Virus record (IMG/VR): IMGVR_UViG_3300010389_000127
Location: 1-24,981 of that record
DNA length: 24,981 bases
Reading direction: 5' to 3' (one strand)
DNA from: a virus
In this document: piece after piece, positions 9,338-21,198 of the stretch
Position numbering within the stretch: the first letter of the stretch is position 1
How the letters are laid out: every line of letters starts with the position of its first letter
The notes under the pieces: generated by a model
Seen by the model: only the letters and a program-made list of their open reading frames with translations
Told to the model about the DNA's origin: nothing
Databases searched by the model: none
Position numbers and translations under genes: made by a program

Positions 9338-9380
9338 TCCTTTTTCCTAGCGTTGCCTTACTTTCTATTTTAAGTTAATT

Positions 9381-15235: not shown

Positions 15236-15583
15236 ATGTACCACGGTGATTCGGCCGGTTTCTTGGATAGCTTTGTTCAAGACGAAGTGAAGAAGCGTTG
15301 TCTTTCGGTAGAAGATTTCGGACAACCTCTCGCTAACGAAGAAAATGATGTACCCTTATATGACATGTATAACCGAGGCTTGGTAGCATGCGAGCAGGGG
15401 CTAGAAAGGAATCCGTTGACTCTCGAGGGGGGACGGCCCGGAATGACGGGTTACATTCCGTCGATGGAGGAGGGGGTGATGATGGGAGCAGCTCCGAAAC
15501 CGAAAGCATTAGTTTTGGAACTGGAAGCACCTTCGGAGGAGATGCAGGAAGAGTCGTTGAAACGGCGTGGTTTGCGCCGGTAG
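15236..15583 (+). CDS. Hypothetical protein overlapping the DUF3310 gene
   Basis: Start ATG 15236 (115 aa); an upstream TTG in this frame lies inside the divergent gene. The first 45 residues (MYHGDSAGFLDSFVQDEVKKRCLSVEDF) look like a genuine small domain and resemble amino ends of other cyanophage hypothetical proteins. The carboxy half is Glu/Gly/Pro-rich. The last 196 nt are shared, in another frame, with the DUF3310 ORF. A -1 shift at GGGGGGA (15427-15433) would join this amino end to the DUF3310 domain. So this may be an independent protein, the short product of a frameshift pair, or the front half of a gene broken by a sequencing indel. Confidence 0.5.
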   Translation: MYHGDSAGFLDSFVQDEVKKRCLSVEDFGQPLANEENDVPLYDMYNRGLVACEQGLERNPLTLEGGRPGMTGYIPSMEEGVMMGAAPKPKALVLELEAPSEEMQEESLKRRGLRR

Positions 15584-15933
15584 AAAGCTCTGCTTCTCCC
15601 GACATCGTGACCTTTGGTGAGTGCAAGGACGGCGTGTGTCCTGTGCCCTGGGCTACCAAAACTGAGACCAGTAACGTATTTACTTTTGAAGATGGTCCCA
15701 AGGCCATCTTTGGTGATGAGGTCAATCACCCTGAGCACTACACCGATGGTGCAATTGAGTGCATTGAAGGGATTGAAGCTCAGCAAACCCTCGAAGAATT
15801 TCGTGGTTATCTGAAGGGCAATATTGTGAAATATGTCTGGAGGGAGCGCCACAAGGGAGGGCTGCAATCGCTCAAGAAAGCCCAGTGGTACTTAGACCGT
15901 CTGATTCAGCTCGTGGAAGCTCAGAACGGCTGA
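15388..15933 (+). CDS. DUF3310 domain protein
   Basis: A 181-residue ORF whose residues 112-178 are the DUF3310 domain of phage proteins: VNHPEHYTDGAIECIEGIEA, then FRGYLKGNIVKYVWRERHKGG and LKKAQWYLDRLIQL. The family is common in phages near nucleotide-metabolism genes; its biochemical role is not settled. The first 60 residues are Gly/Ser/Asp-rich and look like an unfolded linker. They overlap the previous frame. GAGG (15375-15378) lies 9 nt before ATG 15388, so independent initiation is possible. The gene ends convergent with the NblA-like gene, with a 13-nt overlap. Confidence 0.7.
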   Translation: MRAGARKESVDSRGGTARNDGLHSVDGGGGDDGSSSETESISFGTGSTFGGDAGRVVETAWFAPVESSASPDIVTFGECKDGVCPVPWATKTETSNVFTFEDGPKAIFGDEVNHPEHYTDGAIECIEGIEAQQTLEEFRGYLKGNIVKYVWRERHKGGLQSLKKAQWYLDRLIQLVEAQNG

Positions 15934-16211
15934 CCCTCTTCTTCCTCGTCGTCGTCTTCGTAACCTGCGCAGGCGGCGGCGAGTTCTTCTAGTTCTAGGT
16001 CGGTGGGAACATCAAAGTTCAGCTCGATGTTCTCGTCAATAAGAATTTCTTTGACTGCGTGCCACTCCATCAAGCGCTGGTGGTAGAGATTTAGCAGTGC
16101 GTAATACAGCTCATCCCATGTCATTTCCTGGGCGGCCATCTCAGCCTTGCGCATGGAGAACTGCAGTTCCAGGGGCAACTCAAACTGCCGTGGTTCAACT
16201 GACCTCTCCAT
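15921..16211 (-). CDS. nblA: NblA-like phycobilisome degradation adaptor
   Basis: Residues 11-60 follow the NblA pattern closely: ELPLELQFSMRKAE, then MTWDELYYALLNLYHQRLM and VKEILIDE, matching the family's L-x-L-E-x-x-F-x-x-R-x-x-E, then M-x-x-E-L-x-x-x-L-L-x-L-Y-x-Q-x-x-M, then I-K. NblA is a helical-hairpin dimer that binds phycobiliproteins and the Clp chaperone so that phycobilisomes are degraded. NblA genes are known in freshwater cyanophages and have been reported from uncultured marine cyanophages. This copy is 96 aa, longer than the usual about 60, with an acidic tail (EDDDEEEEG). AGGA stands 5 nt before ATG. If the call is right, it would release amino acids and change light harvesting during infection. 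The assignment is from motif memory, not a search. Confidence 0.6.
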   Translation of the reverse strand: MERSVEPRQFELPLELQFSMRKAEMAAQEMTWDELYYALLNLYHQRLMEWHAVKEILIDENIELNFDVPTDLELEELAAACAGYEDDDEEEEGQPF

Positions 16212-16246
16212 CTCGTCCTAGCGACTTTGATAGGAGTATTCTAAGG

Positions 16247-16900
16247 CTAATTAGCAAATAGAGTATCTAGCTCCTCTGAGCTAAGTGGAATCCAGGCACT
16301 TTCCGTGATCCGAAAGTTGTTGGCAAATTCTGCCAGCACATAAGGATTAATGTTTTCTTCCAGTGCTCGAATCGCTCTGACTTGGTGTGGGGCAGCAGAG
16401 TAATTACGGAAAGCCGTCATCAAGACTTCAGTGGAGGCCCAGGGGTTGCCATCTATTTCCCGTAGAAACATGGCGACTTCTTCCCGACGCCGATCTAAAA
16501 GACCACCGATGACATCGTGGTTCTTATCGAAGATCCAGCTCATCATTTCTTCTGCAGCTTCGGAGAGATCATCGCGCTCAATGGCGTCGACAATGCTGCT
16601 GTAAAGGAAAGGAGTCCAACCAATGGAGTGAACAAACGAGATCAACGCCTGCTCCATGGAGTGGTCCAGGTTCAAGTGCAGGTCATCCAAAAGCGAGCGG
16701 ATGGTCTTAACTTCCTGGAACAAATACTCCAGAGCTTTTTCCTTTGTACACCACTGGCCTTGTTTGACGGGCGTACCGTCTGGGTAGTACTGAGTACCGT
16801 AGCCGACAGTGTAACTGCCGTCTTCCCCAGACGGATATGCTTTTTCGCTGAAACCTTCGTACTTACGAATAAGTTCTACAGCTTCCCGAAATTCGCCCAT
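16247..16900 (-). CDS. Phage lysozyme, GH24 family (endolysin)
   Basis: A 217-residue protein with the T4-type lysozyme signature at the amino end: RKYEGFSEKAYPSGEDGSYTVGYG places the catalytic Glu at 15 and the catalytic-region Thr at 31. The position of T4 Asp20 appears to be Ser24, with Glu26 and Asp27 nearby. Further family features are KEKALEYLFQEV, ALISFVHSIGWTPF and LLDRRREEVAMF. It would cut the glycan strands of host peptidoglycan at lysis. The last 60 residues go beyond the usual GH24 fold and may be an extra binding part. No signal peptide is seen, so it would depend on a holin. It is the second cell-wall hydrolase of the window. Confidence 0.85.
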   Translation of the reverse strand: MGEFREAVELIRKYEGFSEKAYPSGEDGSYTVGYGTQYYPDGTPVKQGQWCTKEKALEYLFQEVKTIRSLLDDLHLNLDHSMEQALISFVHSIGWTPFLYSSIVDAIERDDLSEAAEEMMSWIFDKNHDVIGGLLDRRREEVAMFLREIDGNPWASTEVLMTAFRNYSAAPHQVRAIRALEENINPYVLAEFANNFRITESAWIPLSSEELDTLFAN

Positions 16901-17076: not shown

Positions 17077-17376
17077 TCACCACTTTACTTTGTGAGACCA
17101 GTACCTGGCAGACATTTTGTCGGGATTCGGATCTTGGGCGTCGTGCCGGGCGTAGTAAGACTTCTTGCGGGCTTTGTCTTTTTCTGTGGTCGGATTTCTG
17201 CCTGCGCCTTCTACACCCTGTTGGCCAAAGCGAACAATCTTCTCCTCGCCACCTTCACAAGCTTTAACAACATGTGATTTGGTGGCATGGCCAGGAGTAC
17301 GACGAGGCTTGTTGCACTCCATGTCATCTTTAGCAAGCTTGGCTGCTTTTGCTGCTTTCTTACGTTTATCTGACAT
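17077..17376 (-). CDS. Conserved phage protein, 99 aa
   Basis: A basic protein with the pattern CNKPRRTPGHATKSHVVKACEGG, then IVRFGQQGVEGAGRNP, KARKKSYYARHDAQ and a closing MSARYWSHKVKW. I recall close relatives in many marine and other phages, annotated as hypothetical. Two cysteines (21, 40) and clustered His and Arg residues might bind metal or nucleic acid. Its TAATG overlap with the 1109-aa virion gene shows translational coupling, so it may be made with virion proteins. Confidence 0.7.
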   Translation of the reverse strand: MSDKRKKAAKAAKLAKDDMECNKPRRTPGHATKSHVVKACEGGEEKIVRFGQQGVEGAGRNPTTEKDKARKKSYYARHDAQDPNPDKMSARYWSHKVKW

Positions 17377-20300
17377 TAGAGACCTTTGAACATAGAAGTG
17401 AATTCACCAAGGAATTGCTTACCAGCGTTGGACTTGTAATCAACTTCCTCATCGTCTTCTCCCAGTCTAAAGTAACTTGTATATGGATCTGTACTGGAAT
17501 CTTTCCTGGCTTCTTCCAGGGCTGCTTCCTGGTCTTCTGGAAAGAAACTTTCGATCGTTCCAAGAGAAGCAAATGGATCACTGAAATCAAGCCCGTAAGT
17601 TTTAAGGGGATCGTCACGTCCTGCCTTTGTCAATAGAACCTGTTCGCTTCGATCAAGATCAGGGAAAAAGTTTTCGTAGAACTCATCTTCTGTTCCTTGA
17701 TAACCTGCTTTCTGATAGATGGCATACAACTCTGTGGTTGGTTTTGCCATTTCATCTTTATAGTCTTCAGGCCGTTCGATGTAGGTAACACCAAGGATCT
17801 CTTGGGTTGGCTTCTGGCGCTTTTCATTCAGGTACTTAATCTGTTCTCGAATATCAAGAGCAGATCCAGTGCGAAGAGTCTCGACAATATATTGCTTTAA
17901 CTCATCAACTGTTCCTGCGTAATCTGTTAGACCGTACCGTTGGAGCACTTCTTTCCATTCATCAGGAGTGTTGTAGGGATCCAGACCTCGCAGCATTTCA
18001 TCGGCAAACTCTTCTGGTGTGATGAATTGACCAAACGCTGCTACTGGGGCTTCAAACGCCTTTTCTTGTAAAACCGGAACAACTGTGGAATACAAGAAGT
18101 CTTCCACCTTGCCTGCATTAACGATGTCATCAGCAGCGTCAAAACCTTGGCCTTGACCTCTGACCTCGAAGTGCATCCGGGCAAATGCGGCCTTGTTGTT
18201 AACATCCACACCAAAGCGGTAAGCCTGCTGGTACCAGTAACCAGAGCCTTCCGCCACTTGTTTCTTTGCTTCCTCCCAATCCTTTTCGACCATTTCCTTT
18301 TGCTTGGCGTAGCTGCTAACGCGGCCTTTGTCACCACTGGGATCGAAGTAGAAGTTCGGATCAAAGCTCCTGGGTCCCTCCAGCTTAATGTTACCGAGAT
18401 ATTCCTCTGTGTATTTATCGGACAGCGCCTTCATGGCCTGGTAGGTATCTTGTAAATACAGGGCACTGGTCTGGAAAGGGTTGCGTTCTTCTTGGCGAAC
18501 ATCAAGGTACTCAACAAATTCGTCCATAGACCTTGATGTACTAAAACGAGGTGACAGATACTCATCAATGTAATCACGAGCAAACTGCGCCTCAATATTC
18601 ATCATCTCGGTTTTGTCGCCCAATGTCATCGACAAAGCAAGATCTCTGTCTTTTGCTGCGTCTAGAACGTTGATATCAGCAAGAATTCGAGATTGGATCG
18701 GATAAAGAATTTGCTTTGTTTCTTCGTTGACATCTCCCTTAATAGCTTCCAGGATGCTCAAGCCTTCTTCTCCTTGTCCCTCTAAGAACTCCACAAGAGA
18801 ATTACTGGAACTAAAGCCAGCACTAGCTACGAACTCGTTAGTGAAAGCACCCTTGGTTTGATCGAAAGGCTTTTTCTCTGATTCCAAGAACGCGTTTAAG
18901 ATATCTTTCTTTTCTTCCAGGGGCTCAAATTGCGCATAGTCAATGCCATATTTTTCTTTAATGGCTGTGTCAAACCATTGTTGCCAGTTGTAGACAACGC
19001 TGTTGCGCATGCCCGTGACGTTCTGGAGAGAGTTGAGCAGACTCTCTTCTGCCTTACCTGCTGAGGTGTAAGAAAGAATACCGCCTACCCCTGTGTCTCC
19101 CAGGATGGCATTAGATAGTTCTTTATTAATGTCAACAACTTCACTGAAGCCACTGAAGCCACGGTAGAAAGCAAGCATCTCCTGCTCACCCTTCACCCGT
19201 TTCATTTCCGCAATTGTGTCCTTAAGAACGTTCTGACTTAAAGCAGCAAAGTTTTTGATATCAAATTCTGTTTTCTTGGCAATCGCTTCGTTGATTGCGT
19301 CTTCCAGCTGAGTGATACCTTCTTCTACCCCAAGGTTTGACTGGAAAATGATCTGCTTGTCCTCTGGTCTTTCAGAAAGACGGAAGAGTACGCTGAACTC
19401 ATCTGCAATGGTTGGATCCAGGTACTTTTCTTTAGCGAGCGCAGACCAGTAAGGATCACCATTGCGAGCCTTGGTCCATTCGTTTGCAACCTCTGGAATA
19501 TTGAGAAGACGTTCGGTAATAGTTCCCTGGTTAACTCCAAGCTGCTTGTCGCGTATCGTCTGAATATCTGAATCAGTTGGAGTTTGTTCTACATAAGCAT
19601 TAGCAGCAGCGGTATCTTCTTCTTTGTTGCCCCGTAAACCCTGTGACTTACCCGTGCTGGTGTAATGTTGCAGGTAGTAGTTGTTTTCACCATATCGCTC
19701 GGTAATATCAATGTCATCATTAGCAACAGCTTCACTATAAGCTTGTGAAACGACAGGGTTTTGATCTCTGTAGTACTTGGGATCAAAGATGCCATAAGGC
19801 GGTTGGGCTCCAAGGTTGGAATCCCAGATGGTCAGCTTTTCTGTTCTGTAAAAGTCTTTATATTGTGATTGGATGTTGCCAACAAGATCTTGTGCATCGG
19901 CATAAGACATGCCTGCGTTAACCAGTTCTTGTACATTGATTCGATCTCGCTGATCAACGTAGTCACCACCATTGGTACTTGCCGCTATCTGTAACGTCTT
20001 GTCGTAAAGATTATTTGAAAGCGTTCCACGGGTATTGGCGTAGGTGTTCTCTTGGTTTAGTTGGGTGTTTTGTTCATTTAACTTTCTTGCTTCATCATTA
20101 AGCCTTGCATTGGTTGCGTTTAACTCAATGTTCTCACTGTTTTTATTGAATGCTTCTGTATTTAGTTGTATGATTGTTTGGTTTTGTCTTTGAACATTTA
20201 AATTTTCTGTCTCATTGTTTAAATTTTGCTGAGCATTTTCGGCATTACGAATAGCATTAGCCTGATTTTCGGCTGCGTTAGTATTATTTTTTTGTTGATT

Positions 20301-20705
20301 TTCTTTGTTTTTTTGTTTGTTTTCTTTGTTTTTCTCTTTGTCGTCTACCCATTTAAACCGTTCTACGTTGGAACAACGCCGACGGTACCAGGGTCCCTCG
20401 CAGACTCTCTCCCAGCCGTCTGAGACTTTTATCTGTTTATCTGTTGGGTAATCAGTGCGGTAGTCGGTTTTTAAATCTGTCCGAAGATTAGTGGGAAGAT
20501 TTGTCGGTAAATAGGGTTGAAAAGATACAGCGCCATAATCGGTCGTGGTTGTCCACTGACCGTTTACATAGGTGCGGTACAGATTATTAATAGGGTGATC
20601 TGTTTTTCGACTTGTGTCGTAATTAGTTAAATAGTCAGTCTTGTAGTCCGTCCGCTCAGGAACGATACTCCAAGACCTAGATGTTGGGTTGTAGGCGATA
20701 CCCAT
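17376..20705 (-). CDS. Large probable virion protein with tetrapeptide repeats and an Asn-rich coil
   Basis: The largest gene of the window, 1109 residues. The amino end has two runs of a tetrapeptide repeat of form T-(D/N)-(Y/L)-x (residues 19-30 and 68-91), then VCEGPWYRRRC with a Cys pair (102, 111). Residues about 122-222 are Lys/Asn/Gln/Glu-rich and strongly coil-forming (KEKNKENKQKNKENQQKNN). The remaining 880 residues are mostly helical and acidic with many Tyr, without membrane segments or a recognised enzyme motif. The size, the lysozyme and conserved small genes downstream, and the leftward late position suggest a virion protein, possibly an internal ejected protein or tape-measure-like protein. 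I do not recognise the family. Confidence 0.6.
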   Translation of the reverse strand: MGIAYNPTSRSWSIVPERTDYKTDYLTNYDTSRKTDHPINNLYRTYVNGQWTTTTDYGAVSFQPYLPTNLPTNLRTDLKTDYRTDYPTDKQIKVSDGWERVCEGPWYRRRCSNVERFKWVDDKEKNKENKQKNKENQQKNNTNAAENQANAIRNAENAQQNLNNETENLNVQRQNQTIIQLNTEAFNKNSENIELNATNARLNDEARKLNEQNTQLNQENTYANTRGTLSNNLYDKTLQIAASTNGGDYVDQRDRINVQELVNAGMSYADAQDLVGNIQSQYKDFYRTEKLTIWDSNLGAQPPYGIFDPKYYRDQNPVVSQAYSEAVANDDIDITERYGENNYYLQHYTSTGKSQGLRGNKEEDTAAANAYVEQTPTDSDIQTIRDKQLGVNQGTITERLLNIPEVANEWTKARNGDPYWSALAKEKYLDPTIADEFSVLFRLSERPEDKQIIFQSNLGVEEGITQLEDAINEAIAKKTEFDIKNFAALSQNVLKDTIAEMKRVKGEQEMLAFYRGFSGFSEVVDINKELSNAILGDTGVGGILSYTSAGKAEESLLNSLQNVTGMRNSVVYNWQQWFDTAIKEKYGIDYAQFEPLEEKKDILNAFLESEKKPFDQTKGAFTNEFVASAGFSSSNSLVEFLEGQGEEGLSILEAIKGDVNEETKQILYPIQSRILADINVLDAAKDRDLALSMTLGDKTEMMNIEAQFARDYIDEYLSPRFSTSRSMDEFVEYLDVRQEERNPFQTSALYLQDTYQAMKALSDKYTEEYLGNIKLEGPRSFDPNFYFDPSGDKGRVSSYAKQKEMVEKDWEEAKKQVAEGSGYWYQQAYRFGVDVNNKAAFARMHFEVRGQGQGFDAADDIVNAGKVEDFLYSTVVPVLQEKAFEAPVAAFGQFITPEEFADEMLRGLDPYNTPDEWKEVLQRYGLTDYAGTVDELKQYIVETLRTGSALDIREQIKYLNEKRQKPTQEILGVTYIERPEDYKDEMAKPTTELYAIYQKAGYQGTEDEFYENFFPDLDRSEQVLLTKAGRDDPLKTYGLDFSDPFASLGTIESFFPEDQEAALEEARKDSSTDPYTSYFRLGEDDEEVDYKSNAGKQFLGEFTSMFKGL
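20433..20504 (-). repeat. Six tandem tetrapeptide repeats (TNLP/TDYR type)
   Basis: Residues 68-91 of the 1109-aa protein read TNLP TNLR TDLK TDYR TDYP TDKQ, six four-residue units. A shorter run, TDYK TDYL TNYD, is at residues 19-30 (20616-20651). Confidence 0.75.
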
Positions 20706-21114: not shown

Positions 21115-21198
21115 GCTCTTTGGTTGCCGTTAATTTATTCTAATTTCCCCATACATGTAGCAGACCAAACTAAAGAGATAAAACTTTGCTTAAGGCTG

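Follow-up and report, generated by a model that had tools for sequence, protein, structure and literature searches.

A probable NblA homologue with a putative SSB-type docking tip in a virus most likely related to cyanophage S-EIV1

We propose that the viral DNA analyzed here (IMG/VR record IMGVR_UViG_3300010389_000127, a stretch of 24,981 nucleotides, hereafter referred to as the window) encodes a divergent NblA-type Clp adaptor that would be expressed late in infection and that carries an added SSB-type docking tip, with phycobilisome proteins as the likely cargo. Judged from sequence comparison and structure prediction, we assign this reading a probability of about 0.5. NblA is a small protein that marks the cyanobacterial light-harvesting antenna, the phycobilisome, for destruction. 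In our view, the homology of the core of the viral protein to NblA can be regarded as settled, while its function cannot.

The NblA-like gene occupies positions 15921-16211 on the minus strand of the window and comprises 96 codons from an ATG start to a TGA stop; the coordinates, strand, and length (96 amino acids) of the sequence-only reading that preceded our study are correct. A tblastn search identified 378 stretches in viral contigs that encode relatives of this protein, and the open reading frame is a genuine gene that is conserved as a protein. One of these relatives (L028, position 2686 onwards) possesses an internal stop after codon 38; either the gene is broken or its sequence contains an error. 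The sole match in a set of about 50,000 phage records was a protein of the cultured Synechococcus phage S-EIV1 (AHV82245.1) that is 65% identical to the NblA-like protein and is annotated as a hypothetical protein; its gene directly follows the lysozyme gene, as it does in the window. Since both the only homologue in the phage records and this lysozyme-adjacent position point to S-EIV1, the window most likely derives from a cyanophage of the S-EIV1 type, a group in which the gene is widespread. A megablast search with the whole window against the phages gave no match, nor did a search with the NblA-like protein against PHROGs and NCBIfam.

The first approximately 58 residues of the protein are very probably homologous to NblA. 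We delimit this core to residues 10-59 (16035-16184, minus strand). The Pfam NblA profile (PF04485), which the sequence-only reading had put forward as a check, aligned with residues 11-57 of the window protein at 19.3 bits and thus below the curated Pfam cut-off of 25, which by itself would be no more than a lead; its sibling L036, which is 73% identical to the window protein, surpassed this cut-off with 27.1 bits, and each of the 18 family members tested was matched with an E-value of 0.1 or lower. With an NblA model that we built from 38 non-redundant cyanobacterial NblAs, the window protein scored 25.8 bits, compared to a maximum of 12.9 bits for 5,000 composition-preserving shuffles, 0.2 bits for the reversed sequence, and at most 7.8 bits for any other open reading frame in a set of 7,448 from the window and related loci. 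Comparison of the family profile with the NblA profile by hhalign yielded a score of 43.9 at a probability of 95.9; among 100 decoys with shuffled columns, the best reached a probability of 10.9 (score 18.6), and the reversed profile one of 0.3. In the reverse direction, the family profile matched nine places in 386 cyanobacterial genomes. Eight of these loci were kept and re-scored, at 50.8-96.9 bits, and every one is an NblA gene; the site of the ninth (G092) had already been marked by the Pfam NblA profile. Because the reverse-search matches end at profile position 52-59, the C-terminal extension of the phage protein has no counterpart in cyanobacterial NblA. Weak matches of the NblA-like protein to the Pfam families PHF12_MRG_bd and DUF4030 fell below the cut-off and were set aside. 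When the phages were searched by tblastn with the Anabaena NblA, no match was obtained, and a second NblA matched only Microcystis phages and their relatives.

AlphaFold2 predictions made on the family alignment (overall pLDDT 75) place helices at residues 14-28, 32-59, and 71-81, followed by a disordered tail in which residues 85-88 and 92-96 have pLDDT values under 50. Modeling of the core alone returned the same helix-loop-helix monomer (pLDDT 87), the helical hairpin that the sequence-only reading had expected. The predicted third helix (residues 71-81; 15969-16001, minus strand) contains an invariant Cys81 and, like the acidic tail behind it, is an addition to the NblA body: cyanobacterial NblAs comprise about 60 amino acids, compared to the 96 of the phage protein. 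Structure searches with Foldseek and VIA-align, conducted with the full model and with the core against the PDB and viral models, returned weak, unrelated helical matches and no NblA entry. This is not evidence against NblA, since two-helix monomers offer such searches little to work with.

Inspection of the individual positions of the core provides a more differentiated picture. The phage family follows cyanobacterial NblA in a gap-free register over approximately 45 residues, and in the N-terminal motif L-x-L-E-x-Q-F, the ClpC side of the protein, all five specified residues (L, L, E, Q, and F) are kept. One Gln residue of this motif region is changed to Leu in the phage family, and the equivalents of two conserved NblA positions, Q11 and K53, are altered. 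Lys53 of the Anabaena NblA is located at the C-terminal binding end, and we take it to be needed for phycobilisome binding. The equivalent position is occupied by Lys or Arg in 29 of the 38 NblAs but by A, I, S, T, or Q in all 18 phage family members. The assertion of the sequence-only reading that the core fits NblA at nearly every conserved position is therefore too strong, given these two changes and an identity of 36% over 47 residues to the closest NblA in our comparison set; the homology that it proposed is supported. Since the basic residue is absent from every member, binding to phycobilisomes cannot be assumed, and we have filed the family as a homologue of NblA rather than as a proven functional NblA. 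Such a pattern would fit a protein that has kept its Clp end and altered its cargo end, and it proves neither.

The C-terminus of the window protein reads EDDDEEEEGQPF. It had previously been read as EDDDEEEEG, which stops three residues short of the actual end, and the extension had been put at about 30 residues; it amounts to about 37 residues beyond the core and includes the conserved predicted helix ahead of the acidic stretch. The predicted disordered acidic tail (residues 84-96, YEDDDEEEEGQPF; 15924-15962, minus strand) varies in length and sequence among the relatives, and the order of its acidic residues shifts as well, although it is acidic in all of them. Its last two residues, a terminal Pro-Phe (15924-15929, minus strand), are its most conserved part: they are present in 40 of the 41 distinct family proteins (64 distinct gene sequences), the exception being the truncated L028. 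The residue preceding the Pro is mostly Gln, and the endings QPF, APF, IPF, and LPF are all found.

A confounding factor for this conservation is a convergent DUF3310 gene (15388-15933, plus strand; E-value 6.5e-19), whose end overlaps that of the NblA-like gene tail-to-tail by 13 bp (15921-15933). This arrangement is kept in most relatives, and the overlap is 4 bp in others. Where it spans 13 bp, the QPF codons face the final codons of the DUF3310 gene on the other strand (QNG-stop), so that part of the Pro-Phe conservation could stem from that gene. We therefore considered 12 listed genes with the 4-bp overlap together with L012, in which the DUF3310 gene is situated well away. All 13 keep Pro-Phe, as QPF, APF, IPF, or LPF, with synonymous variation in both codons (CCT, CCG, or CCC and TTT or TTC); L035, one of the genes with a 4-bp overlap, is followed by a different downstream open reading frame and still ends in QPF. 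Hence, the overlap is not the whole cause of the Pro-Phe conservation. Because these 13 genes retain the Pro-Phe with synonymous variation, selection seems to act on the tip itself, although the sequences are related and not independent of each other. We consider it probable that the tip is functional.

These data bear on the explanation that the protein is an ordinary, divergent phage NblA that serves phycobilisome degradation only, with a tail that acts as a solubility or stability extension or as an unstructured handle for the Clp unfoldase and with a Pro-Phe ending that has no SSB-type role. The homology evidence applies to it equally, and the DUF3310 overlap would explain some of the Pro-Phe conservation. 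Moreover, several known cyanophages carry NblA, and some of these proteins cause pigment loss when expressed (PMC9602691). The phages Ma-LMM01, MaMV-DC, and PaV-LD resemble the virus studied here in possessing an NblA-type gene. However, the NblAs of Ma-LMM01 and PaV-LD score well above the Pfam cut-off, have no acidic tail, and keep the basic residue at their C-terminal end, which is lost from the family. Since the Pro-Phe also persists through synonymous changes in genes with no 13-bp overlap, at the end of tails that otherwise vary, we regard this explanation as somewhat unlikely.

The free end of the family proteins resembles the C-terminal tip (SSB-Ct) of single-stranded DNA-binding proteins. 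Partner proteins of the E. coli SSB, whose tip reads DDDIPF, bind it through its final Phe, the Pro before it, and the Asp residues (PMC10164576; PMC5872125). The phage family shares with this tip a predicted disordered acidic stretch that ends in Pro-Phe at a free C-terminus; it differs in that the tip is placed on an NblA hairpin instead of an OB-fold and that mostly Gln rather than Ile precedes the Pro. No OB-fold was recognized in the NblA-like protein: the SSB profile (PF00436) found no match, and three helices are predicted. Eleven SSBs from cyanobacterial genomes of small, picocyanobacterial size end in (E/D)(D/E)EIPF (e.g., EDEIPF), and the SSBs of S-EIV1-group phages end in TDEPF (S-EIV1), EEAPF, EEVPF, DEIPF, or DDAPF. 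A separate SSB gene was present in all five long relatives first tested and in five of nine further contigs, several of which are short. We scanned three long related contigs in six frames for acidic ends of the type [P/L/I/V]-F and retrieved the SSB, the NblA-like protein, and a 57-codon open reading frame ending in NIF that has no other support; only the SSB and the NblA-like protein end in acidic-Pro-Phe. The same filter applied to S-EIV1 returned only the SSB. The NblA-like protein of this phage was missed because its tip, DLRKELAPF, possesses basic residues near the end; its acidic run is found about 10 residues from the tip, and it is a weaker match to SSB-Ct. The sequence-only reading had suggested that the acidic extension might change the partner of the protein, an idea that was well directed and that overlooked the SSB-like Pro-Phe tip. 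We see an even chance that the tip acts as an SSB-Ct docking peptide.

A tip common to the phage and host-type SSBs, together with a kept N-terminal motif and a lost C-terminal basic residue, would also suit a retargeted adaptor whose hairpin recruits ClpC, whose new C-terminal half replaces phycobilisome binding, and whose tip selects SSB-interacting repair or replication proteins as cargo or blocks their SSB pocket. We find this improbable, since phycobiliproteins may still be bound through other residues and the tip of S-EIV1 itself is the weaker match described above. The specific proposal of a phage-rewired protease adaptor, with a hairpin that still recruits ClpC and with cargo moved from phycobilisomes to proteins possessing an SSB-Ct pocket, strikes us as quite improbable. 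If it were true, the phage would remove host proteins of repair and replication, or keep hold of them, by means of the Clp machinery of the host or through simple competition.

The lysozyme gene located directly upstream of the NblA-like gene (16247-16900, minus strand; Phage_lysozyme, E-value 1.7e-19) places the latter in the late structural strand, in agreement with the setting proposed in the sequence-only reading. Between the two genes, 33 nt upstream of the start codon, we found the octamer TTAGAATA (16237-16244, minus strand), a putative late promoter element. Of 37 distinct upstream regions, 34 contain the sequence TTA(G/A)AATA at a distance of 32-34 nt from the NblA-like start, and this sequence also occurs a short way upstream of other late-strand genes of the window (21136-21143 and 9366-9373, both minus strand) and in four related genomes, often on the late strand. 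It presumably resembles the late promoters of T4-type phages, and we regard it as a candidate late promoter of S-EIV1-like phages. Expression of nblA in phage Ma-LMM01 is early (PMC4103541), and late expression would set the window gene apart from it. This difference, the position directly after the lysozyme gene with its own putative late-type promoter element, and the lack of an NblA match in the structure searches would favor a small, late, helical phage protein that is not functionally an NblA (e.g., a lysis control, virion, or transcription accessory protein) and whose hairpin is related to or convergent on NblA, a highly unlikely explanation given that NblA alone is picked by the profile searches, forward and reverse, and that a two-helix monomer gives structure searches so little to work with.

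Elsewhere in the window, two genes on the minus strand are possible auxiliary genes: that at 4657-5367 matches a PHROG family labelled ferrochelatase (E-value 2.6e-61) with no Pfam match, and that at 5376-6002 matches a PHROG family labelled 2OG-Fe(II) oxygenase. A protein of 1,109 amino acids (17376-20705, minus strand) had no match in Pfam or PHROG; at the corresponding place, S-EIV1 carries a hypothetical gene of 2.7 kb.

In our preferred reading, that of a divergent NblA-type adaptor which is expressed late and bears an SSB-type tip, the hairpin would dimerize as in NblA, and its N-terminal end would dock on the host ClpC; the protein would thus act as an adaptor for Clp late in the infection. 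Most likely, it would still deliver phycobilisome proteins for degradation, which would provide amino acids and lower light harvesting. That phycobilisomes are made available to Clp, the role originally proposed for this gene, can reasonably be inferred, and we rate the odds of phycobilisome degradation by the NblA-like protein as slightly better than even. The C-terminus of NblA is replaced by the predicted third helix and the acidic tail with its terminal Pro-Phe. This tip would constitute an additional, distinct SSB-Ct-type docking peptide for at least one host or phage protein that possesses an SSB-Ct pocket; it might place the adaptor near replicating phage DNA, present the pocket proteins to Clp, or tie them up.

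Cyanophage nblA genes are known from Microcystis and Planktothrix phages, and distant forms have been found in marine phages (PMC9602691). The distant NblA-like genes of S-TIM5, S-SCSM1, and podoviruses were described by Nadel et al. (2019), as cited in PMC9602691; to judge from that citation, they are, like the family studied here, distant homologues recognized only by sensitive comparison. Our search with the Pfam NblA profile yielded nothing for S-TIM5 or S-SCSM1, in contrast to the S-EIV1-group family. In one ocean survey, about 3% of the cyanophage signal came from the S-EIV1 group; photosynthesis genes were screened in that study, and no nblA is listed for this group (PMC5332604). A prophage of Synechococcus elongatus UTEX 3055 has been reported to be most similar to S-EIV1 (PMC9239245), and it would offer a practical laboratory system if it possesses the NblA-like gene. 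Among publications that mention both S-EIV1 and nblA, we found none that assigns nblA to S-EIV1, and we came across no report naming the gene, although it may have been named earlier.

We know of no link between NblA and SSB-type tip systems anywhere, and an SSB-type tip on an NblA body would join the two. S-EIV1-like phages are widespread. If their gene works as an NblA, the dismantling of the light-harvesting apparatus would extend to the S-EIV1 group.
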